Origin: a virus
Strand: one strand, 5' to 3'
Virus record (IMG/VR): IMGVR_UViG_3300031952_000146
Span: 1 to 23,762 of that record
Length of the DNA: 23,762 nt
Under the pieces are notes generated by a model. The model worked only from the letters and a program-made list of their open reading frames with translations. It did no database searches and was not told the origin of the DNA. Each line of letters starts with the position of its first letter. Position 1 is the stretch's first letter. A program made the position numbers and the translations under genes. Positions 2,909 to 22,167 of the stretch are shown here, piece after piece.

Positions 2909-3097
2909 ATGAACACGAGCGAACGAGCAATTCGATGGCAGTGTGGCCTCTGCCGGAAAGTTTGGACTGAGGCAGACTTAAATAATCGTTTTTGCTGTCC
3001 CTATTGTGGTGCGCAATATCTCATTCTCCTGTTACAGAAAGGCGAACAGTCCTTTGATAATTGCTGGACAATATCAGAAGACGAGGTTGCAGTGTGA
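2909..3097 (+). CDS. Small zinc-ribbon protein
   Basis: This 62-residue protein is little more than one zinc ribbon: Cys12-x2-Cys15 (QCGLCRKVW) and Cys29/Cys30 with Cys33 (CCPYCGAQY). The Trp and Tyr around the knuckles are normal for the fold. It is the first gene after the 2852-2880 promoter. The nearest ribosome-site-like tract, GGGGAG at 2888-2893, is far from the ATG, so start efficiency may be low. Its stop overlaps the GTG start of the HNH gene (GTGA), so the two are probably translationally coupled. Small zinc ribbons of this kind may bind nucleic acid or partner proteins; the role here is unknown. Confidence 0.6.
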   Translation: MNTSERAIRWQCGLCRKVWTEADLNNRFCCPYCGAQYLILLLQKGEQSFDNCWTISEDEVAV

Positions 3098-3549
3098 CAG
3101 GCAATATGAAGAACCCGCCAATAAAAAAGAAGGCACCGAATTTGCGTGATTGGAGATTAGCGGTTTTATCCAGGGATAATAATATTTGCCGGAAATGCGG
3201 GTCGAAAAAGCATGTTGTTGCTCATCATATCAAGTCACGCTATACCTATCCGGGACTGAGACTAAGAGTTGACAATGGCATAAGCCTCTGCCGAAGGTGC
3301 CATGCAGAGTTGAAAGAGTATGCACTCAGATTATTGCCAATGTCGAGGCTGGGTGCCTATCCTAGCGGTATTAATCTAGAGGAACTCGGTCAAGAGATCC
3401 GGCATATGACACGCCGGCAGGGCATCTATCGTGTCCTCAAGACTGAGCTTTCTCTCAGAGGTTATTGGAAAGCACGTCCCCGCGGGGATCCCAAGAAAGG
3501 GTATAGAGGCATGGAGCATACTTTCAGTCGATTAAGCAAGGGCAAATAG
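3094..3549 (+). CDS. HNH endonuclease
   Basis: The protein is a compact HNH nuclease of 151 residues when started at the GTG at 3094. That start overlaps the upstream stop as GTGA and has GAGG seven bases before it; an ATG at 3106 is the alternative. Counting from the GTG, the core runs from Asn17 to Ala71. It has zinc-type Cys32/Cys35 (ICRKCG), the first catalytic histidine in AHHIK (44-45), Asn61 in VDNGISLC, and Cys66/Cys69 with His70 in CRRCH. Such HNH proteins often sit next to terminase genes of HK97-type phages, where some are needed for specific packaging cuts with TerL. Position upstream of TerS fits that role. Confidence 0.85.
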   Translation: MTGNMKNPPIKKKAPNLRDWRLAVLSRDNNICRKCGSKKHVVAHHIKSRYTYPGLRLRVDNGISLCRRCHAELKEYALRLLPMSRLGAYPSGINLEELGQEIRHMTRRQGIYRVLKTELSLRGYWKARPRGDPKKGYRGMEHTFSRLSKGK

Positions 3550-4778: not shown

Positions 4779-5402
4779 ATGAAATTTAATCCATCGCCGA
4801 CCAAATTGGTGCGTGTTCTTGATAAGGATGGGCATGTGACAAAAGTAGTGCCTAAAATTGGCGAGATAAGGGCAGGTTATGAGATTGGCTATGGTTATAG
4901 CAATAAATTTATATGGGGTGCCTGTGAAGTCTGTGGTAAAGAACGATGGGTTGGATTAATCAGAGGTCACCCTCACCATAGACGTTGTAATCCTTGTGCA
5001 AATAGGGAGGCAGGGAAGGGCCATTCTCGTAATAGAAGCTCATGGTGGAAAGGTGGGCGTATACTAGACCACAGGGGCTATATATACATTTCGTTAGAAT
5101 CTGGGGATTTCTTTTATCCAATGACAAACAAACAAGGTTATGTATTTGAGCATCGTCTTGTCATGGCAAAACATCTTGGCAGATGTCTTCACTCTTGGGA
5201 ACTTGTCCATCACAAAAATCATGTTCGTGATGACAACCGAATAGAAAATCTTCAGCTCGTTACAGATGATAGGCATAACCAAATCACTATTCTGGAAAAT
5301 AAGATAAGTAATCAAGCAAAAGAGATCGCACAATTGAAGAAGCAGATGTGCTTATTAAATAGAGCACAAAGGCGGAAATTGAAAGTACGGAGGCATAAAT
5401 AG
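4779..5402 (+). CDS. HNH homing-type endonuclease
   Basis: The 207-residue protein has a four-cysteine zinc finger near its centre (Cys49, Cys52, Cys70, Cys73) and a C-terminal HNH_3-type core. The core starts at GYVFEHRLVMAKHLG (120-134), has the catalytic-type pair His144-His145 in VHHKNHVRDDNRIENL, and ends near RHNQ (165-168). A basic coiled-coil tail follows. It sits between the two terminase genes and is AT-rich: 5281-5340 has 18 G/C in 60, against 35 in 60 at 6061-6120 in TerL. GAGG lies a few bases before its ATG. It is most likely a free-standing homing endonuclease that spreads by cutting terminase regions that lack it. Confidence 0.8.
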   Translation: MKFNPSPTKLVRVLDKDGHVTKVVPKIGEIRAGYEIGYGYSNKFIWGACEVCGKERWVGLIRGHPHHRRCNPCANREAGKGHSRNRSSWWKGGRILDHRGYIYISLESGDFFYPMTNKQGYVFEHRLVMAKHLGRCLHSWELVHHKNHVRDDNRIENLQLVTDDRHNQITILENKISNQAKEIAQLKKQMCLLNRAQRRKLKVRRHK

Positions 5403-5415
5403 GAACTTATCCTCG

Positions 5416-5435
5416 GGGCGTCTTAATGAGCGCCC
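5416..5435 (+). promoter_or_regulatory. Hairpin enclosing the TerL start codon
   Basis: GGGCG at 5416-5420 pairs with CGCCC at 5431-5435, leaving the ATG of the large terminase (5426-5428) in the 10-base loop. The only ribosome-site-like bases (GGGG) lie within the stem. In mRNA this could restrain TerL translation. Confidence 0.35.
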
Positions 5436-6865
5436 ACATCGGAAGTGAGGTTGCTGATACCGACTGGCTGCGTGATCCCGCTTCGCTCGCCGAAAAGCTA
5501 TCAGGCGGGCGCTGGAGGCGGTATCATCATCTCGATTTCATATCTAACAAGGTCAAGGAACTCGAAAACCGGCCTATCTTCCTGATAGTCACAATTCCGC
5601 CCAGGCATGGCAAATCGGAATTGATTTCTCATTGGACGCCAGTTTGGTTTCTTAAACGCTGGCCTTACAAACATGTGATTCTCGCGTCTTATCAGGCTGG
5701 CTTTGCCGCCGACTGGGGCGGCGTTGTCAGGAATTCGATTGTTGAACACGAAGCACAACTTGGCCTTTCCTTAGCGATGGACACAAGGTCAAAATCACAG
5801 TGGCGCATAAAAGGCTATGGTGGGGGCATGTTAGCCTCTGGAGTGATGGGTCCGATCACCGGGCATGGGGGAGATCTACTGATTATCGATGATCCCATAA
5901 AATCGCAGAAAGAGGCCCTATCTCTGGTATACCGGGAGTCTATTAAGCAGTGGTATAGATCCACATTTCGAACCAGAGCGCAACCTAACGCCTCGATTAT
6001 TTTATTACAAACTCGCTGGCATGAGGATGATCTAGCTGGGTATCTTATAAGCGAATCTCGAAAGCCGGAGAGCGATCTTCCCCGGGATCCCTGGGAGGTG
6101 ATCAATCTTCCAGCGTTAGCAGAACCGGATGATCCTCTGGGTCGTCCTGAGGGGGAAGCGCTCTGGCCTGAAATGTACCCGAGGCAATCTTTACTCCAAG
6201 TCAGAGAGGCAATCGGCCCCTACTGGTATGCAGCAGAATATCAAGGCTATCCCCGGCCAGAAGGGGGATCGATCATCAAAGAAGCTTGGTTTCAGTATTA
6301 TTCAGATCAAGAAAATCCCCTGGTCAATGAAAGCATCAAGGTGGAACGGTGCATCCAGGTCTGGGATACAGCTTTTGAGCTTGACGATTCTTCTTCCCGG
6401 AGCGCGTGCATGACCTGGGTAAAAGCCGGCGCGTTCTTTTATGTGATCGATGTCTGGGCCAAGCGGGTAGAGTTCCCGGATCTGATCCAGGCTGCAAAGA
6501 TGAAATATGCTCAATGGAAGCCAACGCACATTTACATTGAGCATAAAGCATCCGGCCATTCTCTGGTGCAGCAGTTACGCAGAGACACCAACTTGCCGAT
6601 CATTCCGGTCAAGGCTGATACTGATAAGGCATCGAGATTGAACGCTGTTTCGGGTATTGTCGAAGCGGGAAGGGTGAAGCTTCCAGCGCAGGCGCCCTGG
6701 CTGTCTGATTTTCTGTACGAGGTCTGCTCGTTCCCTGCTGCCAAGACTGACGATATTGCAGATTGCTTCGCTCATGGATTGATGCAAATGCACCCATCGC
6801 TGGGTAAGGGAGATCTGCCGGTCCGACGGGGAGTGAAGGAATCGATCTGGAAACGAACAGAATGA
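5426..6865 (+). CDS. terL: Large terminase subunit (ATPase and nuclease)
   Basis: A complete 479-residue TerL, the motor that cuts and pumps phage DNA into the prohead. The ATPase half has Walker A at residues 57-65 (IPPRHGKSE), Walker B at 150-156 (DLLIIDD) and a coupling motif LLQTRWHEDD near 193-202. The nuclease half has the expected acidic metal ligands: Asp314 (VWDTAFE), Glu372 (IYIEHKASG) and Asp442/Asp443/Asp446 (TDDIADCF). No motif is missing. The start has only a weak ribosome site inside a small hairpin. The gene is unusually rich in GATC (19 counted by eye). Its neighbours, TerS upstream and the portal farther on, fit a head-filling packaging module, although appendage genes lie between TerL and the portal. 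Confidence 0.95.
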   Translation: MSAHIGSEVADTDWLRDPASLAEKLSGGRWRRYHHLDFISNKVKELENRPIFLIVTIPPRHGKSELISHWTPVWFLKRWPYKHVILASYQAGFAADWGGVVRNSIVEHEAQLGLSLAMDTRSKSQWRIKGYGGGMLASGVMGPITGHGGDLLIIDDPIKSQKEALSLVYRESIKQWYRSTFRTRAQPNASIILLQTRWHEDDLAGYLISESRKPESDLPRDPWEVINLPALAEPDDPLGRPEGEALWPEMYPRQSLLQVREAIGPYWYAAEYQGYPRPEGGSIIKEAWFQYYSDQENPLVNESIKVERCIQVWDTAFELDDSSSRSACMTWVKAGAFFYVIDVWAKRVEFPDLIQAAKMKYAQWKPTHIYIEHKASGHSLVQQLRRDTNLPIIPVKADTDKASRLNAVSGIVEAGRVKLPAQAPWLSDFLYEVCSFPAAKTDDIADCFAHGLMQMHPSLGKGDLPVRRGVKESIWKRTE

Positions 6866-7908: not shown

Positions 7909-8006
7909 GCGATCCTGGCTTTTCTTGGCAGATAGACAGATGGCGCCCAGAGCAGCGTCATGGGTATAAAGATATTCGCCATAAGAGGGGGCGCAAGCGA
8001 AGATGA
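7905..8006 (+). CDS. Small basic protein coupled at both ends (33 aa)
   Basis: A 33-residue frame begins at an ATG that overlaps the previous stop (ATGA) and ends in a TGA that overlaps the ATG of the next gene (ATGA). Such double coupling is strong evidence that it is translated. The peptide begins MSDPGFSWQIDRWRPEQ and ends in a very basic tail (RHKRGRKRR). No family is recognised. The basic tail could bind nucleic acid or phospholipid. Confidence 0.55.
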   Translation: MSDPGFSWQIDRWRPEQRHGYKDIRHKRGRKRR

Positions 8007-8296
8007 ACTGGTTCAAGCTGGGATTCTGGGAGTTTCTGAAGAAGATGTTCGGGCCAGAGGGCATCCTTTCATCCTGGCAAGAGAGACACGCTTTTCTAAT
8101 TGGGATATGCGAGACTGTGGCTTTCTTGAAACCACGCTGGGATATGCCACCCGATTATGAGGCATGGGTTAAACAGGCCGATACTCATAAGCCAGGCAAC
8201 CCGCTCTATGAGTATCATTACTATATGTTTGGCCGGGCTTGCGGTGTAGTATTCTGGCTGATCGTGATTGCTTTCTTTTGGAAGGTAATAGCTTAA
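8003..8296 (+). CDS. Small protein with C-terminal membrane segment
   Basis: This 97-residue protein has an amphipathic N-terminus (MNWFKLGFWEFLKKMFG), a polar middle with DMPPDYEAWVKQA and a C-terminal hydrophobic span (about 79-95, CGVVFWLIVIAFFWKVI). A tail-anchored topology with the bulk in the cytoplasm is likely. Its ATG overlaps the stop of the 33-residue gene, so it belongs to the same translation unit. It resembles no family I can name. The frame at 7960-8160 that overlaps it is a shadow. Confidence 0.55.
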   Translation: MNWFKLGFWEFLKKMFGPEGILSSWQERHAFLIGICETVAFLKPRWDMPPDYEAWVKQADTHKPGNPLYEYHYYMFGRACGVVFWLIVIAFFWKVIA

Positions 8297-8314
8297 ATTG
8301 ACAGGAGTGTGAGA

Positions 8315-8563
8315 ATGAAAAGTTTATTTGGAGATCCAGAGGAAAAGATTGAGCATCGTGTTCCGCCCAAGCCGGCTACTGCAGAAGAGCAGATGGCTAT
8401 GATCTGGGAAGCTGTGTTCAATGGCAATGGGATCCTAAAGAGGCTTATCGATAATAACCGCTGGCTGACGCGCCGGCTGCGCTTTCAAGATATAAAGCTG
8501 AATTTCATTCTGGTCTTCCTGGCACTATTATTAGGGTGTCTGGGAAAACTGATGTTTAGCTAA
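8315..8563 (+). CDS. Small membrane protein, XhlA/holin-like
   Basis: The protein has 82 residues from ATG 8315, which has GGAG at 8304-8307 seven bases upstream; a GTG at 8309 is the less likely start. A soluble helical region with WEAVFNGNGILKRLIDNNRW is followed by a basic patch (RRLRF) and one C-terminal membrane span (FILVFLALLLGCLGKLMF). This build is reminiscent of hemolysin XhlA-like proteins, which pair with holins in lysis. The homology was not demonstrated. It closes the small-gene cassette after TerL. Confidence 0.5.
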   Translation: MKSLFGDPEEKIEHRVPPKPATAEEQMAMIWEAVFNGNGILKRLIDNNRWLTRRLRFQDIKLNFILVFLALLLGCLGKLMFS

Positions 8564-8566
8564 TAG

Positions 8567-8586
8567 AAGGAGGCAGATCGATGTGA
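8567..8586 (+). other. Ribosome site followed by start-stop codons
   Basis: AAGGAGG at 8567-8573 is followed seven bases later by ATG immediately followed by TGA (8581-8586). A GTG at 8583 would instead give a 12-codon frame with the same ribosome site. A strong ribosome site with no real gene may be a stalling or coupling element, or the remnant of a deleted gene. Confidence 0.3.
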
Positions 8587-8594
8587 AAAGTATT

Positions 8595-8624
8595 TTGTAT
8601 CTAACTCGGGATCGAATCTAAAAT
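8595..8624 (+). promoter_or_regulatory. Possible weak promoter before the appendage genes
   Basis: TTGTAT at 8595-8600 and TAAAAT at 8619-8624 are spaced by 18 bases. The -10 matches five of six consensus bases, the -35 only three. Transcription would start just before the AAAGGAGG ribosome site of the tail-fibre-like gene. Confidence 0.3.
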
Positions 8625-8643
8625 ATAAAGGAGGATCAAGTCA

Positions 8644-9042
8644 ATGGCAGAATTTTCAGATTACATGGAGAACAAAATCCTAAACTCGCTAAGGAACGTG
8701 GCTGGGGTGCAGGTAGCTGCGTATGTGGCCCTCTTCACAGCCGTCACCGGCCTGGAGGCCGACAGCGGCTGGTCCGCCACCGAAGTCACCGGGGGTGACT
8801 ACGCACGGCAGCTAGCTGGGTTAACAGAAGCTACTGGCGCGGGCGGAGCGACTTCCAATGCTGCTGACATCACTTTCCCGCAAGCCTCGGCGGACTGGGG
8901 AATCATAACCCACGCCGCCCTCATGGATGCTCTCACCAGCGGCCACGTTCTGATGTGGACACAGCTTGATGTTCCCAAAACCATAGGGACCGGGGATACA
9001 TTCAAGTTTGCAGCTGGCGATCTTGATGTAACCGTAGCGTGA
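8644..9042 (+). CDS. Phage tail-fibre-like structural protein
   Basis: The 132-residue protein matches a common short phage appendage family by layout. It has an N-terminal helix (SDYMENKILNSL), then VAAYVALFTAV, then TGGDYARQLAGLTEATG and the closing strands ITFPQASADWGIITHAALMDA and KTIGTGDTFKFAAGDLDVTVA. These motifs are typical of small proteins annotated as tail fibre proteins in siphophages. It starts after a strong AAAGGAGG ribosome site and opens the cassette that runs to 13181. The gene holds a single GATC, which contrasts with the rest of the phage. Confidence 0.7.
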   Translation: MAEFSDYMENKILNSLRNVAGVQVAAYVALFTAVTGLEADSGWSATEVTGGDYARQLAGLTEATGAGGATSNAADITFPQASADWGIITHAALMDALTSGHVLMWTQLDVPKTIGTGDTFKFAAGDLDVTVA

Positions 9043-9532: not shown

Positions 9533-10453
9533 ATGGGTTTGCTCGCAGGATGGCCTTACTATAGTGATATAACAGTCGCAAATGGGTCTGCCGACTATCA
9601 GACTAAAATCACTGTCTATTATGGCAGTGGCACGAATGGCGAGAATGTCGTCTATTGCAATTCACTTTGTCAGGCGGACTTTGATGACTTGAGGTTTGCT
9701 GCTGCGGATGGCACGACCTTACTTGACTATTGGATTGAGTCCTATATTGCCTCAACATCGGCTGTAGTCCATGTGCAGAATAATAGCACTCCTGATACTA
9801 CCTTGCGTATGTACTATGGCAAGGCTGATGCTACGGGGGTAAGCAGTATTCAAGATACCTTCATCGCAGGCGATGAATTCACTGATGGTGATTATACCTC
9901 CAATCCTGTCTGGACTGTGGTACAAGGGACTTGGGCGGTGGCTGCTGGGATACTTGCTCCTACATCAACTGGCACTCCCGATGAAGTAAACACCCCCGCT
10001 ACCTTGACAGCCTTCAGATTACGAGCTAGATGTAAAACGACAACAGAGAAGGCCTTCATTATCTCTGTAGAGAATAACAATCGGTCAACCTCATATCAGC
10101 TTTATGCTTATTCTAAGGCGGGTATTTACATTCAATTATATGAAAACAGTGCGACGGTCCTCTATACTACGGCTCAGACTATTGACACAAACTATCACAT
10201 TCTTGAACTTACGAGGGATGCTGCTTCTCTATTCAATATTCTTTATGACAATGTAAACAAAGGCAGCGTCACAGATTCTACTACTACCTCGTTTAATAAA
10301 ATTGCCTTTGAGTCTCACGGTTCTATAGCTAATTCATTGGATTGGATATTTGCAGCCAAGTATGCAGCCACAGAGCCAACCTTTACGTTTGGAAGTCAGC
10401 AAGTAGCCTTTCAGCCTTTCAGAAATGTTTATCCGCACATTTTAGCTCACTAA
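9533..10453 (+). CDS. DUF2341 and LamG-like appendage protein
   Basis: The first 100 or so residues have the DUF2341 pattern: GWPYYSDITVAN, KITVYYGSGTNG, DFDDLRFAAADGTTLLDYWIE and LRMYYGKADATG. The rest (about 118-300) reads as a jelly-roll similar to LamG/concanavalin domains, with FTDGDYTSNPVWTVVQGTW, RLRARCKTTTEKAFIISV and HILELTRDAASLFNILYDN. Such pairs occur in secreted or virion proteins and often bind sugars. GAGGAG precedes the ATG. A receptor- or matrix-binding role is inferred. The gene contains no GATC by eye. Confidence 0.7.
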   Translation: MGLLAGWPYYSDITVANGSADYQTKITVYYGSGTNGENVVYCNSLCQADFDDLRFAAADGTTLLDYWIESYIASTSAVVHVQNNSTPDTTLRMYYGKADATGVSSIQDTFIAGDEFTDGDYTSNPVWTVVQGTWAVAAGILAPTSTGTPDEVNTPATLTAFRLRARCKTTTEKAFIISVENNNRSTSYQLYAYSKAGIYIQLYENSATVLYTTAQTIDTNYHILELTRDAASLFNILYDNVNKGSVTDSTTTSFNKIAFESHGSIANSLDWIFAAKYAATEPTFTFGSQQVAFQPFRNVYPHILAH

Positions 10454-10465
10454 AGGAGGTGAACT

Positions 10466-10969
10466 ATGGGAAAACTTTATTCAGTAATCGGGGACAATGT
10501 AACCATAACCACAGTAACAAGGGGGCTGGTAGGAATCAGCACTTCTGCCACCGAGTTAGCAGCAGGAGGGAAAATCAAAATAAAGAGAGTTGAAGTTGGG
10601 CAGGCTGCCAATGCCACCTCAGCAATGCTACGACTTGCGTTTTCTAAACGAGACCAAGCAGCAACCCTAACTCATGCGACTGCTAAAACACCAGCACCTT
10701 TGGATGTTGGTGGAGTGGCTTCTGCCATTCTTGGTAATACTACAGGGAACGCTGTTCTTTGTAGTGGTGTGGGTTCAACTGTTGATACAGGTGGAACTTA
10801 TGTTGATCTCTGGTATGCAGCCTTCAATGCACTGAATGGTTATTTGTGGATTCCAACTCCCGAAACAGAAATCATCATACACAATACATCAGTGTTTTGT
10901 GTGAGATTCCTGGCTGACCCTGCTACCTTAACTGGTTGGTCAATCGCCGTAGTCTTTGAAGAACTCTAG
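10466..10969 (+). CDS. Beta-rich structural protein
   Basis: The 167-residue protein is almost all predicted strands: KLYSVIGDNVTITTVTRG at the start, then KIKIKRVEVGQAANATSAMLRLAF, and a C-terminal FCVRFLADPATLTGWSIAVVFEEL. Its layout resembles a jelly-roll virion protein, but no family could be named. It has an AAAGGAGGTG ribosome site and lies directly before the repeat protein, so it may be a partner or the base of that appendage. Confidence 0.5.
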   Translation: MGKLYSVIGDNVTITTVTRGLVGISTSATELAAGGKIKIKRVEVGQAANATSAMLRLAFSKRDQAATLTHATAKTPAPLDVGGVASAILGNTTGNAVLCSGVGSTVDTGGTYVDLWYAAFNALNGYLWIPTPETEIIIHNTSVFCVRFLADPATLTGWSIAVVFEEL

Positions 10970-10977
10970 GAGATTAA

Positions 10978-12855
10978 ATGCCTATTTGGAGACAGCCCCC
11001 GCAACCTCAACAGCGTAGGGTTTGGAAACCTACAGGGATTGCTGTTGTTGAAGGTGCTGCTTCTCTAAGTGGTACTGGAGCGGTAACCGCCATCGGAATC
11101 ATAGAGGTTTGCGGTAAGGCTAGCTTCTCGGGAACAGCCACATTAGTCGCCACAGCCGAGCTAGTAATAACTGGCAAAGCGATATTGTCTGGAACAGGGA
11201 CATTAGTTGCGGTCAGCCAACAGACTAGCTATGCGAAGGCTATCTTCTCTGGTGCAGGCTCATTAACAGCTATCACCACAACTATTATCTCAGCTTCTGC
11301 AAGTTTATCAGGGACAGGAAGTCTATTTGCTGCAGCCAAATGCACCTTAAAAGGTTCGGGGACGATTTCGGGGATAGGGACATTAGCCGGGGTCGGTAGA
11401 TGTATATTTGAGGGGACAGTCATATTATCGGGTGCTGGCACTCTGATCGCCGCCGGGCTGCTTATTGGTACTGGCAAGGCGATACTCTCAGGCGAAGGCA
11501 CGCTAGCAGCAGCCGGCCATATCATCGGGATCGTTAAGGCCACACTATCAGGTACGGGCACACTTTCAGCCACCGCTGTGCTGATCACCGTTGCAAAGGC
11601 CACCATGGCCGGCATCGGCGACCTGGCGGCGGCTGGCCTCATTATCAGGACCGCTAAGGCCACGTTATCGGGGATAGGCTCACTCGCCACCGCTGGCCAG
11701 GTCACCGGGAGCGCCCACGCCACCATGGCAGGCACCAGCATACTTTCAGCCAGTGCCTATTCAATTCTAGCGGGCAAAGCCACACTATTAGGAGAGGGCA
11801 GCTTGGTGGCAACTGCCAAACTCACGCTGAAGGGCTCTGTCACCCTGGGCGGGACCGGTACCTTGACTGCGCTGGCTCAGCCCATATACACAGCTAAAGC
11901 TACACTATCAGGCACCGGGGACCTTGCCGCTAAAGCCAGCGCTATCTGGTCTATATCGGTCACGCTATCAGGGATAGGCAGCCTCACAGCTAGAGCTGTA
12001 TCGATCACGCTTGCAAAAGCTACTCTATCAGCAGAAGGATCTCTGATAGGTGCCGCCAGTATAGACACTATCGGCAAAGCTACCTTAATCGGAACTGGTA
12101 TCTTATCGGCAACAGCACAATGTCTAATAAATGCCACCGCTATCCTATCTGGCAGTGGCTCGTTAGCAGCTATAGGGCAGGTGGGGGGATTGCTTTATGG
12201 CACCGCTACTTTCTCCGGGATGGGATCACTGGGAGCTATAGCGAAAGGGATATTCCCCGGAGCAGCTACTTTATCTGGCATTGGGACATTAGCTGCTATC
12301 GGGCAGAACACAGTCAAGGCCTCTGCTATGCTATCTGGAGTTGGCACCCTAGCTGGCTTCGGAAGTCTGATTCTCACTGGTAAGGTTGTCCTAACCGGGG
12401 CAGGTGCTTTAGCTGCAACCGCAGAATATCTAGCCAGTGGTAAGGGCATACTCTCTGGGACAGGATCGATAATAGCGGCCGCCCGGTTAATCGCAGTTGG
12501 CAAAGCTAGCTTAGATGGCAGTGGATCGCTCACAGCTACAGGTGGGCGGCTAATCAAGGGTGTAGCGTTGTTAGAAGGCAATGGTACGCTTTCAGCGACA
12601 GCTCAGGCCATTTTAGCAGGGGCAGCGATTATGTCGGGCCAAGGAAACCTAACTGCAGCTGCGGTTATAATATGTATGGGCATGGCATCCATTACCGGAG
12701 CAGGGACCATGATCGCTGTAGCATCTGTCATTCAGGGCATCGCCATGAGACTTATCCCGATTACCATAACTTTCCCTGAGCGTGAAATAACCGCTCAGCT
12801 TATTGATAAGGCTATTACGGTTTCCTTCTATGAGCGCACGATCAAAGTGAGGTAA
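10978..12855 (+). CDS. Giant 20-residue-repeat appendage protein
   Basis: The 625-residue protein has a short basic N-terminus (25 residues) and then 28 tandem repeats that fill residues 26-587. A 38-residue C-terminal cap with ITITFPEREITAQ and AITVSFYERTIKV follows. The unit is GKATLSGTGTLSAxAxxIxx. Every unit is exactly 20 residues except the 19th, which has two extra. Small residues, Thr, Ser and Gly dominate, and charged and aromatic residues are scarce. It should fold as a beta-solenoid or stacked beta-hairpin fibre. Units share little at the DNA level, so the period is kept by selection on the protein. It may be a tail spike, head fibre or adhesin. Confidence 0.75.
   Translation: MPIWRQPPQPQQRRVWKPTGIAVVEGAASLSGTGAVTAIGIIEVCGKASFSGTATLVATAELVITGKAILSGTGTLVAVSQQTSYAKAIFSGAGSLTAITTTIISASASLSGTGSLFAAAKCTLKGSGTISGIGTLAGVGRCIFEGTVILSGAGTLIAAGLLIGTGKAILSGEGTLAAAGHIIGIVKATLSGTGTLSATAVLITVAKATMAGIGDLAAAGLIIRTAKATLSGIGSLATAGQVTGSAHATMAGTSILSASAYSILAGKATLLGEGSLVATAKLTLKGSVTLGGTGTLTALAQPIYTAKATLSGTGDLAAKASAIWSISVTLSGIGSLTARAVSITLAKATLSAEGSLIGAASIDTIGKATLIGTGILSATAQCLINATAILSGSGSLAAIGQVGGLLYGTATFSGMGSLGAIAKGIFPGAATLSGIGTLAAIGQNTVKASAMLSGVGTLAGFGSLILTGKVVLTGAGALAATAEYLASGKGILSGTGSIIAAARLIAVGKASLDGSGSLTATGGRLIKGVALLEGNGTLSATAQAILAGAAIMSGQGNLTAAAVIICMGMASITGAGTMIAVASVIQGIAMRLIPITITFPEREITAQLIDKAITVSFYERTIKVR
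11053..12738 (+). repeat. 28 tandem 60-base coding repeats
   Basis: The repeat block of the giant appendage protein consists of 60-base units coding 20 residues each, with one 66-base unit at the 19th position. The period is seen through the recurring SG-x-G-x-L core. At the DNA level the units are strongly diverged. It is not a CRISPR array and no spacers are present. Confidence 0.8.
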
Positions 12856-12857
12856 GC

Positions 12858-13181
12858 ATGGAAAAGATAAATATCAAGCAGGGAGCTTTCGGATTCGGAT
12901 ATGAATTCGTGGGCATTCCAGATGAATGGGTAGACGAAGAAGCTGAGGTTTGGTTCACAGCTTGGAAGCCTGGAGATCCCACAGAGAAAGTCTGCCAGAA
13001 AGTATGTGAGTTTAGTGGCGCGAAGTTCTGGCTGATGGTAGAAGAAGATGACTTCGATGCTGAGCCCGGCATCTATTATTATGAGGTTGCTCGCTATGAA
13101 GATGGAGTAATGTTAGATCCCTCTTTTACCGGGGAATTAGAGATCCTGGAAAGCGCAGGAGCGCCTGGAGATGAAGAATGA
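12858..13181 (+). CDS. Ig-like/BppU-N-like virion protein
   Basis: The 107-residue protein has the strand order of phage Ig-like or baseplate BppU N-terminal domains: INIKQGAFGFGYEFV, EEAEVWFTAWKPGDP, CEFSGAKFWLMVEEDDF and the diagnostic GIYYYEVARYEDGV near the end. It is very acidic at the C-terminus. It starts two bases after the repeat protein and its stop overlaps the start of the portal (ATGA). It may be a base domain for the appendage or a head-joining protein. The family match is by pattern only. Confidence 0.5.
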   Translation: MEKINIKQGAFGFGYEFVGIPDEWVDEEAEVWFTAWKPGDPTEKVCQKVCEFSGAKFWLMVEEDDFDAEPGIYYYEVARYEDGVMLDPSFTGELEILESAGAPGDEE

Positions 13182-14524
13182 ATAAGAAACGAGAAAAACG
13201 AAACAGATTCTATGCTCGAGAAGGCCAGCAATCGACCTCAGAGGGCCAGCAGAGCCTCAGCACGGTGCGGTACTCAAAGGGGGCCAGTGGTATAGGGGTC
13301 AGAGGGCTTAAACATCGAGCAGGGCGCATAGAGGAAGAATGGCGCAAAGAGTTCCGGTCATGGGATAGAGCGTGCAAGCAATTCATCGAAATGCGGGATT
13401 ACTACATCATCGCAACCGTCCTGGATGCGGTGAAACTGCCCCTATTGGAAGCGAAAGTCTCTACCGAACCAGCAGAAGCGCAGACACCCGGCGATATCGC
13501 TGCTGCAGACTGGCTGTTAGATTGCATCAACAGGATGCACAGACAAACCTGGGCATCGCATATCGAAGATATGCTTTCATCGATTGAATTCGGTTGGGCG
13601 CTGGGAGAGATCGTGCTGGAAAAGAGAGGGGATGGTAGGCACTGGCTAAAGAACATTGATCCCCGGGGACAAGATACGCTTTCCAGATGGGAGTTTGATG
13701 CACAGATCAGAGATGAAGTCCTGAAGATGATTCAGCTAGATCCCAACCTAAACATTGAGATTCCCATCCCCCTAGCGAAGTGCGTGCATGTAACCTTCCG
13801 CGGACGAAAGGGCAATCCAGAGGGGCATTCGGTTCTGTTATCTCTGCACTGGCCCTACAGGATGCTTCGAGACCTTGAAGTGTTCGAAGGCATTGGAATT
13901 GAGCGAGATGTAGGGGGCATGCCGGTTGCTAGCTTACCGGAAGAGGGTGTGGTCAGCGATGCTGCGCTTACCAAACTGGAAGAAGCGTTGAAAGGCATGC
14001 GAAGAGATGAAAACGAATTCTTGATCACTCCCCCGGGCGTAGAGGTTAAGCCCTATGGCGCCGGCCAGAAGATGTTCAACATCGGTGAGGTAATAGACCG
14101 GAAGAAAAAAGAGATTCTGATGCGCATGTATGCTCAGTTCCTAATGCTGGGTATGGAGAAGGTAGGGACACAAGCTCTGGTTCAGGGATCCCAGGACTTC
14201 TTCAACCTCTCCCTGGGGGCTGTGCAGCGTAGCACTCTCGAAGCCTGGAATCAGCAGCTTGTCCCTTATCTGTTCGCTTTCAATCGCTTCGAGGGAATGA
14301 CGGATTATCCTCAACTCACATGGGCGCCGCCGGGGAAGATCGATGTTAAGAACATAGTAGACACGCTTAACAGTGCCACCGGCGCCAAGCTCTTCACGCC
14401 AACCGACATCGATGAAGATCATGTCCGGGAAATGTTAGACTGGCCCGCCTTGCCAGATGAAGAAAGAGGGCAGGCAAGAGAGATCGAAAAGCCAGGAATC
14501 CCGGGGCTGTTTGATCTGAAATGA
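13178..14524 (+). CDS. Portal protein
   Basis: A 448-residue portal, of the DUF935 / Mu gp29-like type by pattern. The dodecameric portal ring is the gate for DNA entry and the base for the tail. Typical parts are the early EFRSWDRACKQFIEMRDYY helix, the middle ASHIEDMLSSIEFGWALGEIV and GRHWLKNIDPRGQDTLSRW, the HWPYRMLRDLEVF helix and the LTWAPPGKIDVKNIVDTLN C-terminal region. The N-terminal 30 residues are basic and Gln/Ser-rich. It overlaps the preceding gene (ATGA) and the MuF-like gene (ATGA), so these three are coupled. The gene has normal length. Confidence 0.85.
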   Translation: MNKKREKRNRFYAREGQQSTSEGQQSLSTVRYSKGASGIGVRGLKHRAGRIEEEWRKEFRSWDRACKQFIEMRDYYIIATVLDAVKLPLLEAKVSTEPAEAQTPGDIAAADWLLDCINRMHRQTWASHIEDMLSSIEFGWALGEIVLEKRGDGRHWLKNIDPRGQDTLSRWEFDAQIRDEVLKMIQLDPNLNIEIPIPLAKCVHVTFRGRKGNPEGHSVLLSLHWPYRMLRDLEVFEGIGIERDVGGMPVASLPEEGVVSDAALTKLEEALKGMRRDENEFLITPPGVEVKPYGAGQKMFNIGEVIDRKKKEILMRMYAQFLMLGMEKVGTQALVQGSQDFFNLSLGAVQRSTLEAWNQQLVPYLFAFNRFEGMTDYPQLTWAPPGKIDVKNIVDTLNSATGAKLFTPTDIDEDHVREMLDWPALPDEERGQAREIEKPGIPGLFDLK

Positions 14525-18466: not shown

Positions 18467-19381
18467 ATGCAAACTATACGACACAGAGGTACGCACAGCT
18501 TTGACAGGATAACGGCAAAATTCATAGATGGCTTGCCGTTGCTAATAGTAGGCAATCAATATTTCGTTGATGGCAACAATGGCTCAGATAGTAATGCCGG
18601 GACTATATCTGGCAAAGCGCTAGCTACTGTTGCTGCTGCTATAGCCAAGGCTGTCGCAAATGACGTTATATTTGTCTTCCCCGGCGAATATGACGAAGCG
18701 GTAACAATCGCCCGCACCAAATCTAACCTAACGATTGTTGGGTTGGGGGGAAGGGGCGCTGCTTATATAGCCCCATCAGCCACAAACGCAACAGCGCTGA
18801 CGAACCATTCAGATGACTTAACCCTTGTTAATATCGGTCTGGATGGGGATGGTGCTGGCAGTGCTCTCAGCAATACCGGTTCTCGGTTAAGAGTCTACGA
18901 TTGCAAAATTGAGGGAGGAACAATCGGAGTACTTTTAACGCTAGGGACTGTCGTTCAGAAAGCAGCTGGTACCCATGGATCTGGCGCTGATCTATGGTTC
19001 TTTAATTGTGAATTCTGCTGGAACACAATTGGCATTAAACTGGTATGCACTGACTATGGGGCTGTAACACAGGTTCGCTTTCGTGATTGTACCTTTCACG
19101 ACAACTCGGCTGCCGACTTTGAAGAAGCAGCTGGTAGCGGAGGATCTGCAGCAGTGGGATTCAGAGATCTGGATATCGGAGAGTGCCATTTTCTGCGCCA
19201 AGAAGATGGAACCACTCCAACCAAGTATATCAGTCTCAACGATGCTAACGAAAATTCCGGCGTTGTTCATGGTTGTTCCTTCCCATCTGCTATCAATAGC
19301 GGATTCAATCTCGTTTCAACAGCACTAATATGGGTGGGAAACTTCCATGCCGGGGGACTCTCTACCGGACAGCCATCATAG
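18467..19381 (+). CDS. Parallel beta-helix structural protein
   Basis: The 304-residue protein reads as a right-handed parallel beta-helix. QYFVDGNNGSDSNAGT at the start resembles DUF1565/pectate-lyase-like openings, then VIFVFPGEYDEAVTIARTKSNLTIVGLGG begins coil repeats with LTLVNIGLDGDGAG, LRVYDCKIEGGT, LWFFNCEFCWNTIGIKL and VRFRDCTFHDN. A polysaccharide-binding or decorating role on the virion is plausible. It directly follows the capsid gene, so a capsid-associated role is as likely as a tail spike. AGGAGGG lies upstream. Confidence 0.75.
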   Translation: MQTIRHRGTHSFDRITAKFIDGLPLLIVGNQYFVDGNNGSDSNAGTISGKALATVAAAIAKAVANDVIFVFPGEYDEAVTIARTKSNLTIVGLGGRGAAYIAPSATNATALTNHSDDLTLVNIGLDGDGAGSALSNTGSRLRVYDCKIEGGTIGVLLTLGTVVQKAAGTHGSGADLWFFNCEFCWNTIGIKLVCTDYGAVTQVRFRDCTFHDNSAADFEEAAGSGGSAAVGFRDLDIGECHFLRQEDGTTPTKYISLNDANENSGVVHGCSFPSAINSGFNLVSTALIWVGNFHAGGLSTGQPS

Positions 19382-20810: not shown

Positions 20811-21329
20811 GTGGCAACTGTAATCAGTTTCGAGATACATGGCCTAAAAGAGCTACAGGATCGGCTTAACCGGGGCGATACGATAATGCGCATTACGCTT
20901 AACGAGGGATTGCGAGCAATCGGGAGACTCTTTGTGCCGGCAAAAGGGACAGGCCCCCTGGCAGATGCGACACCCAAGCGGACAGGGAAACTTGCCCGGT
21001 CGACCTTTTTCAGGATCACAGAAAAAGAGCTTCAAGAGCTTATCGTATTGCAGCCAGCTAAAACACCCGAAGAATATGGCGGCATGTTCTATGGCTGGTT
21101 CGTTAGAGAAGGGACAGAACCGCATGAGATCCGGCCAAGATTGGCAAAAGCACTGCACTTCTTTATTGGAGATGCAGAGGTTTTTGCTACCAGGGTAAAT
21201 CATCCTGGCACGAAAGCTAATCCCTATCATCATCGTGTACTGGAAAGCCTAATGCCAGAGGTTCAAGCAATCGTTGAGAAGATAGGGATCCGCATTGCGG
21301 GTTATCTATCCGGTAAGGAGGCATTATGA
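20811..21329 (+). CDS. HK97 gp10-like tail completion protein
   Basis: The 172-residue protein matches the HK97 gp10 family. It begins with ISFEIHGLKELQDRLNRGD, has TPKRTGKLARSTFF in the middle, then YGGMFYGWFVREGTEPHEIRP and VNHPGTKANPYHHRVLES near the end, which are the family's most typical parts. These proteins help join head and tail. It begins with a GTG after AAGGGTAGG and overlaps the first tail tube gene (ATGA). Confidence 0.85.
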   Translation: MATVISFEIHGLKELQDRLNRGDTIMRITLNEGLRAIGRLFVPAKGTGPLADATPKRTGKLARSTFFRITEKELQELIVLQPAKTPEEYGGMFYGWFVREGTEPHEIRPRLAKALHFFIGDAEVFATRVNHPGTKANPYHHRVLESLMPEVQAIVEKIGIRIAGYLSGKEAL

Positions 21330-21727
21330 CGACTGCAACACTCTATGACAGTGTTTTGTCTGTTTTGAAGATCAACGAACAGGATGTCTCAGCCAGCGTG
21401 GTTAATATCACTCCCCGGTTCGGGCGTGTATTGACTGAGGGAACGACTCTGGGAGCTACCCATGAGCGCACGCATCCAGGGATAGGATTGACCAGCATTG
21501 ATGTTGAATTTCTGTTCAATCAAGATGCTACAGTGGGCAGTGATACGGTGATCGGCCCGCTGTTAGGATCGAAAACACCTGTTACCTGGGATTATTTTCC
21601 CCGGGGAGAAGCTGGGAGCAAGTTTAGCGGATATTGCGTTATCGAGGCTTATCAGCCCATAACGAGAGTAGGAAGCCTGGTGAGCGCAACCTGTACGCTA
21701 CGGGGTACTAGTCGGGGCCATGAGTAA
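21326..21727 (+). CDS. Tail tube protein, first copy
   Basis: At 133 residues this is a short major-tail-tube type protein. It opens TATLYDSVLSVLKIN, has VVNITPRFGRVLTEG and TTLGATHERTHPGIGLTSIDVEFLFN, and ends YQPITRVGSLVSATCTLRG. Its sequence aligns along its whole length with the next gene, at roughly half identity by eye. Small tube proteins polymerise as hexameric rings to form the tail. It is coupled to the gp10-like gene (ATGA). Confidence 0.7.
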   Translation: MTTATLYDSVLSVLKINEQDVSASVVNITPRFGRVLTEGTTLGATHERTHPGIGLTSIDVEFLFNQDATVGSDTVIGPLLGSKTPVTWDYFPRGEAGSKFSGYCVIEAYQPITRVGSLVSATCTLRGTSRGHE

Positions 21728-21738
21728 GGAGGCATGCA

Positions 21739-22167
21739 ATGACTGAAGCAACTGTCTATGATAGTCTGGAATCTGTTCTGAAGCTAAACGATGGATCCAC
21801 GCTTCGGGATATCTCCCCTAATATCGTTTCGATCACCCCACGTTTTGCCAGCCAGATTCACGATGCCACAGCTTTAGGGGCAACACACGAACGCCCATAT
21901 GTTGGCATGAGCCTGACGAGCTTAGACTTGGAGCTTGTCTATAACGAAGATGCTAGCGTAGGGACAGATACGGTATTAGCTGCGTTACTGGAAGAGACTG
22001 ATGCGGTGGCATTCGAATACTATCCGCGGGGAACCGGCGCCGGCAAAACGAAGTTCTACGGAACGTGCTTTATTGAAAACTATCAGCCTCTTACCAGGGT
22101 GGGGTCGCTGGTAAGGGCAACTGCAACCTTGCGAGGAATTACTAGATCGAAAGGAGTAGGTTCATGA
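21739..22167 (+). CDS. Tail tube protein, second copy
   Basis: This 142-residue protein is a diverged paralog of the preceding one: EATVYDSLESVLKLN, IVSITPRFASQIHDA, TALGATHERPYVGMSLTSLDLELVYN and YQPLTRVGSLVRATATLRG. It has a few more residues in an early loop (GSTLRDISPN). Tandem tube-like genes suggest two ring types in one tail or alternative use. AGTAAGGAGG lies upstream. Its stop overlaps the chaperone gene (ATGA). Confidence 0.7.
   Translation: MTEATVYDSLESVLKLNDGSTLRDISPNIVSITPRFASQIHDATALGATHERPYVGMSLTSLDLELVYNEDASVGTDTVLAALLEETDAVAFEYYPRGTGAGKTKFYGTCFIENYQPLTRVGSLVRATATLRGITRSKGVGS

Follow-up and report, generated by a model that had tools for sequence, protein, structure and literature searches.

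The repeat gene of the window, by which we mean the whole 23,762-nt stretch analysed here (IMG/VR virus record IMGVR_UViG_3300031952_000146), probably encodes an adhesion fibre of the virion, located at the tail or neck, in which a docking peptide is fixed and the repeat body can be exchanged. That the product is a fibre-like virion protein is supported by the gene context: a relative of gp80 and of a GP4 fibre protein is encoded upstream, and in cultured phages gp80 relatives are often directly followed by genes for repeat proteins with a period of ~20 residues, of which that of BcepIL02 is annotated as virion-associated. For the repeat protein itself, we infer a virion location, a docking partner, a shaft structure and a role in host contact. 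The features discussed below are listed in the table.

Table. Features of the repeat gene and of the genes around it, with coordinates in the window
Feature	Coordinates	Strand	Basis or remark
gp80-like protein	8644..9042	+	PF23140 1.4e-36; PHROG 240 1.4e-20; PDB 8jou chain a 1.8e-10
Variable adhesin-like gene with DUF2341	9533..10453	+	Pfam 4.3e-13; C-terminal YPHILAH
YPHILAH C-terminal peptide, proposed docking tail	10430..10450	+	Synonymous excess over 16 distinct sequences
~167-aa conserved protein, proposed hub	10466..10969	+	47 viral loci, alignment
Repeat protein ORF	10978..12855	+	ATG start, 625 aa
Start peptide MPIWRQPPQPQQ, proposed docking anchor	10978..11013	+	Variants in other close loci
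28 x 20-residue repeat array	11053..12738	+	Residues 26-587
2-residue insert LY	12193..12198	+	Residues 406-407, between units 19 and 20
C-terminal cap, 38 residues	12739..12852	+	R/K-x-h-x-h motifs ~9 residues apart
107-aa protein	12858..13181	+	Directly after repeat gene; beta-rich/Ig-like by appearance only

The repeat array and its predicted structure

An earlier, sequence-only reading of this DNA had described 28 units of 20 residues with a single two-residue insert, diverged at the DNA level, and this description was confirmed. All units other than that with the insert are exactly 20 residues long, and the lag-20 residue identity of the protein (0.41) is far above that of 2000 shuffles (mean 0.12, max 0.16). 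Pairwise identity among the units averages 39% (max 65%) and does not decay with distance along the array, while the DNA has a lag-60 identity of 0.48 and the fixed Gly and Leu residues are specified by scattered codons. This indicates that the units are old and that the array is maintained by protein-level selection, not recent duplication. The core of the unit is G-x-G-x-L-x-A, with Gly7 found in 27/28 units, Gly9 in 26/28, Leu11 in 25/28 and Ala13 in 24/28; thus the glycines and leucine of the previously proposed SG-x-G-x-L core are near-fixed, but its Ser is present in only 19/28. Conservation alternates along the unit (mean entropy for positions 3-15, 0.80 bits at odd vs 2.27 bits at even positions; permutation p = 0.0006), as expected of a beta strand with one buried face and in line with the strong structural constraint that had been postulated.

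The array is flanked, as also described before, by a short start (25 residues rich in Pro, Gln and Arg) and the cap, which by eye consists of three 9-residue pieces (FPEREITAQ LIDKAITVS FYERTIKVR). Similar ends were seen in JC1 gp54, BcepIL02 gp56, PBC5, Atu_ph08 and L018 (L numbers denote the related viral loci described below). The C-terminal motif was picked after inspecting the sequences; shuffle p values for an end of the R-x-h-x-V type were 0.06 for the window protein alone and <= 0.03 for several relatives. Pfam searches with the repeat protein gave no match at E <= 0.1, PF10988 included, and the two weak PHROG matches were to families of unknown function, PHROG 19041 giving no match at E <= 0.1. 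In agreement with the earlier claim, an enzymatic domain was therefore not found. A direct search of viral contigs with three window units yielded no relatives. We also noted open frames on the minus strand opposite the array (11229-11741, 11877-12137 and 12195-12581), which are likely a by-product of array composition rather than genes.

AlphaFold2 models, whose shapes were used for beta-strand content only, were obtained for nine units plus the cap (3 rows; pLDDT 59.5, pTM 0.54) and for five units (11 rows; pLDDT 55.4, pTM 0.45). Both showed one ~15-19-residue beta strand in each unit, at low confidence; the modelling supports beta structure in the units. A PDB fold search with the repeat model returned nothing significant (best E 0.31, probability 0.04), the weak matches being mostly beta-solenoids. 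The top PDB match by sequence was 3lyc, a beta-helix-like 'putative pectinase', at a non-significant E of 0.022. This protein and other DUF2807/head GIN beta-helix proteins have a repeating hydrophobic-S/A-G-x-G-x-hydrophobic pattern like that of the window units, but they are cellular and the window protein lacks a Pfam match. In a viral structure library, one uncharacterised phage protein matched at E 4.5e-4 and other matches had a probability near 1. The top matches were uncharacterised proteins of uncultured phages, with Bcep22 Q6V7N2 matching weakly, which, as a lead only, suggests similar repeats in other uncultured phages.

It is quite possible that the protein is a single-chain beta-solenoid, with one 20-residue coil per unit, serving only as a spacer that holds the cap or the neighbouring adhesin off the particle. 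The fixed period, the alternation of buried positions, the Gly-rich turns, the GSG-type pattern of 3lyc and the solenoids among the weak fold matches are all consistent with this, but no PDB fold match reached significance and the models show long strands at pLDDT 55-60. We are doubtful about a homotrimeric beta-spiral-like shaft, to which each 20-residue unit would contribute two short strands, as in reovirus sigma1 or the adenovirus fibre. There is a precedent in phage and viral fibres whose shafts have repeats of 15-20 residues with conserved Gly and Leu, and an obligate trimer would yield low single-chain confidence, but one long strand, instead of two short ones, was modelled in each unit. 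A beta meander may also be considered. With respect to length, the 28 units would span ~13 nm at one 4.8 A rung each, or ~36 nm at the ~13 A per unit of adenovirus-type shafts. Of the earlier suggestion of a solenoid or fibre, the fibre is supported by the gp80-type context, while the solenoid was not established by the low-confidence models or by any significant PDB fold.

The start peptide and the exchange of repeat bodies

A search with the whole protein retrieved two viral loci, which matched over the first 14-18 residues only. The corresponding ORFs begin MPIWRQPPQPQQ, directly follow relatives of the 167-aa gene and have bodies composed of unrelated repeats. A search with the 167-aa family gave 47 viral loci. 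In 12 close uncultured virus loci, as in the window, the gene directly after the 167-aa gene (hereafter the slot gene) starts M-P/A-I-W-R/Y; the start is followed by Pro/Gln-rich sequence, and the start peptide is identical in L001/L019, L002/L015 and L016. The bodies encoded by the close loci are tandem repeats that differ from those in the window, with dominant periods of 14 (L017), 18-21 (L006), 19 (L013), 20 (L019, L007), 23 (L009, L015, L016, L018) and ~38 residues (L011, L012) and with inserts that include carbohydrate-binding modules in L009 (CBM96 and fn3) and L018 (DUF2341). A profile of the window unit had no significant match among the other slot proteins. Homology of the L006 and L013 repeats (GGALTSAGTLGR and GAITPIGTLGRK) to those of the window was considered and dropped, as these were absent from the profile matches. 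Remoter loci have related starts, e.g. MGIFRQPPQPQ and MAIYYPPPQP, and bodies that are often Pro-rich repeats of ~40 residues, with a 20-residue repeat in L036 and a 103-residue repeat in L033. We also noted a second start-like peptide after the first in L007 (WGEPEQPQQR, residues 43-52) and L014 (MAMWYLSQPRQ, residues 36-45). In L001, a TDG-x-KLSD repeat is present both at the end of an upstream gene (5329-6438) and in the slot protein (8001-8771), which suggests that repeats move between neighbouring genes.

Comparison of closely related pairs indicates that the bodies are replaced whole and altered in unit number. The 167-aa proteins of L017 and L019 are 96% identical, their bodies gave nothing in an unfiltered blastp comparison at E up to 1000, and the sole block of DNA similarity between the two loci extends from ~40 bases before the 167-aa gene to ~35 bases inside the repeat gene. 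The L015 and L016 proteins, on the other hand, are nearly identical apart from a 67-residue difference corresponding to about three 23-aa units.

Codon differences were counted in pairwise comparisons of the repeat genes (12 distinct sequences) and of the genes preceding the 167-aa gene. In the repeat gene, codons 2-8 gave 126 differences that were synonymous and 111 that were nonsynonymous, compared to 59 vs 440 for codons 13-20. The seven codons for YPHILAH at the end of the preceding gene gave 411 synonymous vs 102 nonsynonymous differences, compared to 127 vs 936 for codons -20 to -11. The contrast with the neighbouring codons indicates that both the start peptide and YPHILAH are held at the protein level. 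The body of the preceding gene is variable (DUF2341, CBM96-like and others), and the YPHILAH tail is common to most close relatives. In L006, the gene that ends in YPHILAH is separated from the 167-aa gene by a small ORF ending SVLAH (5865-6000), which may be what is left of a second adhesin tail.

The shared start could instead mark the edge of a recombination block around the 167-aa gene, where the flanking genes are exchanged, and have no docking role. The DNA block coincides with the 167-aa gene, the end of the gene before it and ~12 codons at the start of the repeat gene, which is what such an edge would give. We nevertheless judge this explanation unlikely. Across loci, the peptide residues are kept while the codons differ, unlike the adjacent codons, and W-x-x-P-P..Q elements recur inside the bodies of the remoter loci (40 vs 13.7 in shuffles, max 25).

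Gene neighbourhood and gp80-linked repeat proteins in cultured phages

The repeat ORF sits between the genes for the large terminase (5426-6865, PHROG 38) and a Mu-type portal (13178-14524). Among 12 other records, the Mu-type portal was present in L021 only. The gp80-like gene is located ~2 kb upstream of the repeat gene, with the 145-aa, DUF2341 and 167-aa genes between them, and its PDB match is to chain a of 8jou, fibre I of Ralstonia phage GP4. Twelve other records gave no gp80 match, and a remote-similarity comparison of the L001, L002 and L013 neighbours with gp80 revealed no clear relative. The 167-aa protein had no match in PDB and no convincing match in PHROG, and its gene was not found in cultured phages; it was also compared with gp80 as a candidate homologue, and was rejected as such since no homology was detected. 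The 107-aa protein had no Pfam or PHROG match and no significant PDB match; most relatives have a gene of similar size (92-116 aa) after the slot gene. With respect to the host, a distant copy was found on one Ardenticatenales (Chloroflexota) MAG contig, a lead that is too little to name the host of the window.

Relatives of the gp80-like protein are present in many cultured phages, in which the gene right after the gp80 relative often encodes a repeat protein with a period of ~20 residues. A period of 20 (or 10, 22 or 40) exceeded shuffles for MEP401, two Manatee Spring phages, BcepIL02, JC1, POI1126, PBC5, OspP_OH and Faith1 and was borderline for Atu_ph08 and phiM5, while the next genes of Itty13, BcepMigl, CRP-4, CRP-5, Venkman and ctXG6705 were not above the 20-residue control. 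The ~20-residue beta-type period of MEP401 gp59 (Zobellviridae, Methylophilales), BcepIL02 gp56 and JC1 gp54 (Burkholderia), POI1126 gp16 (Ochrobactrum) and PBC5 orf12 (Sinorhizobium) is like that of the window protein, as are the short distinct start and the short C-terminal beta or W-containing end of the gp80-linked proteins, several of which end in R-x-h-x-V motifs ~9 residues apart. In the cultured phages, however, the gp80 relative is directly upstream, whereas it is nearby but not adjacent in the window; in addition, the start peptides are different and the 167-aa gene is absent. Outside the slot, the unit profile matched MEP401 gp59 with 76 bits, but the reversed gp59 sequence scored 68 bits. 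Because this control scores nearly as well, the likeness of the repeats between phages is at the level of pattern and may be convergent, and common descent of the window repeat and gp59 is not claimed.

For several of the cultured phages, there is information on virion association. BcepIL02 gp55 (the gp80 relative) and gp56 (the repeat protein) are annotated as virion-associated, and PHROG 19041, named virion structural protein, is matched by JC1 gp54, BcepIL02 gp56 and Itty13. The record for the phiM5 gp80 relative notes its detection in the phage particle proteome. For JC1, virion mass spectrometry found gp53, the gp80 relative, but gp54 is not listed (PMC9144972), which speaks against a fibre on the virion.

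The tail fibres of GP4 (8jou; Zheng et al. 2023, as cited in PMC13243795) include a relative of the window gp80-like protein, while the repeat protein itself has no PDB relative. For GP4, 8JOU_g is described as a fibril that links an adhesin to the tail nozzle collar (PMC13243795), whereas the match of the window protein is to chain a. Phage LSH1 has a similar three-gene module (gp34-gp36), in which an adhesin with a beta-helical, poorly predicted spacer, a GP4-like fibril and an Ig-fold protein are always encoded together (PMC13243795). The module is likened to the window genes by description, and the paper describes for it no swapping of bodies behind a constant start peptide (PMC13243795).

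The repeat protein might also be a secreted or cell-surface protein made during infection and carried as cargo between structural genes. The slot gene appears dispensable, given its absence after the 167-aa gene in L004, L005, L008 and L010, and the block around the 167-aa gene occurs in viruses with differing head or tail neighbours. We consider a non-virion protein very unlikely, however, as the gene lies among head and tail genes near a gp80 relative, the BcepIL02 counterpart is annotated as virion-associated and, by eye, no signal peptide was noticed in the repeat protein.

A proposed mode of attachment

If the repeat protein is an adhesion fibre, the start peptide would dock the chain on a conserved base. 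This base may be the 167-aa protein, to which the preceding adhesin would be attached as well, by its YPHILAH tail; that both peptides dock to the protein encoded between them is something we infer from position only. As a stiff beta spacer, the repeats would determine how far the fibre reaches, and the beta cap might end, pair or trimerise the shaft. Exchange of the body, or gain and loss of units, could then tune reach and host contact with the dock unchanged, and the gp80 relative, by analogy to GP4, would be the fibril that ties the assembly to the tail collar.

More tentatively, the locus may be a general attachment slot, in which the ~12-residue peptide is the sole conserved anchor for any tandem-repeat body (periods of ~14-40, with or without lectin-like inserts) and the 167-aa protein is the socket for this peptide as well as the YPHILAH tail. 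Phage tail fibres generally have a conserved attachment end and a variable remainder, as does the window protein; exchange of their receptor-binding parts, with a folded N-terminal domain that is conserved, is known. What appears to be new is that the conserved anchor is very short and that the whole shaft changes, across unrelated repeat families; no description of this combination of start peptide and 167-aa slot was found in the literature on tandem-repeat phage fibres. If correct, the slot would represent a peptide/socket pair by which arbitrary repeat proteins could be fixed to a phage particle, would account for part of the large class of unannotated repeat proteins of environmental phages and would allow a direct test of what the shaft, as opposed to the tip, contributes to host contact.

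Elsewhere in the window, a second beta-helix-type protein is encoded right after the major capsid gene (18467-19381), with weak matches to DUF1565, pectinesterase and tail fibres. An ORF end at 2-340 carries a PVPEPVPAPVPAPVPAPDPQP stretch, a Pro-rich linker, followed by a hydrophobic end, and ORFs that by eye resemble HNH-type endonucleases are located on either side of the terminase-side genes (3061-3549 and 4779-5402). Finally, the products of two adjacent genes (21326-21727 and 21739-22167; ATLYDSVLSVLKIN.. and ATVYDSLESVLKLN..) are clearly similar and share GATHER and YQP(I/L)TRVGSLV, reflecting a tandem duplication, perhaps of a tail protein gene.
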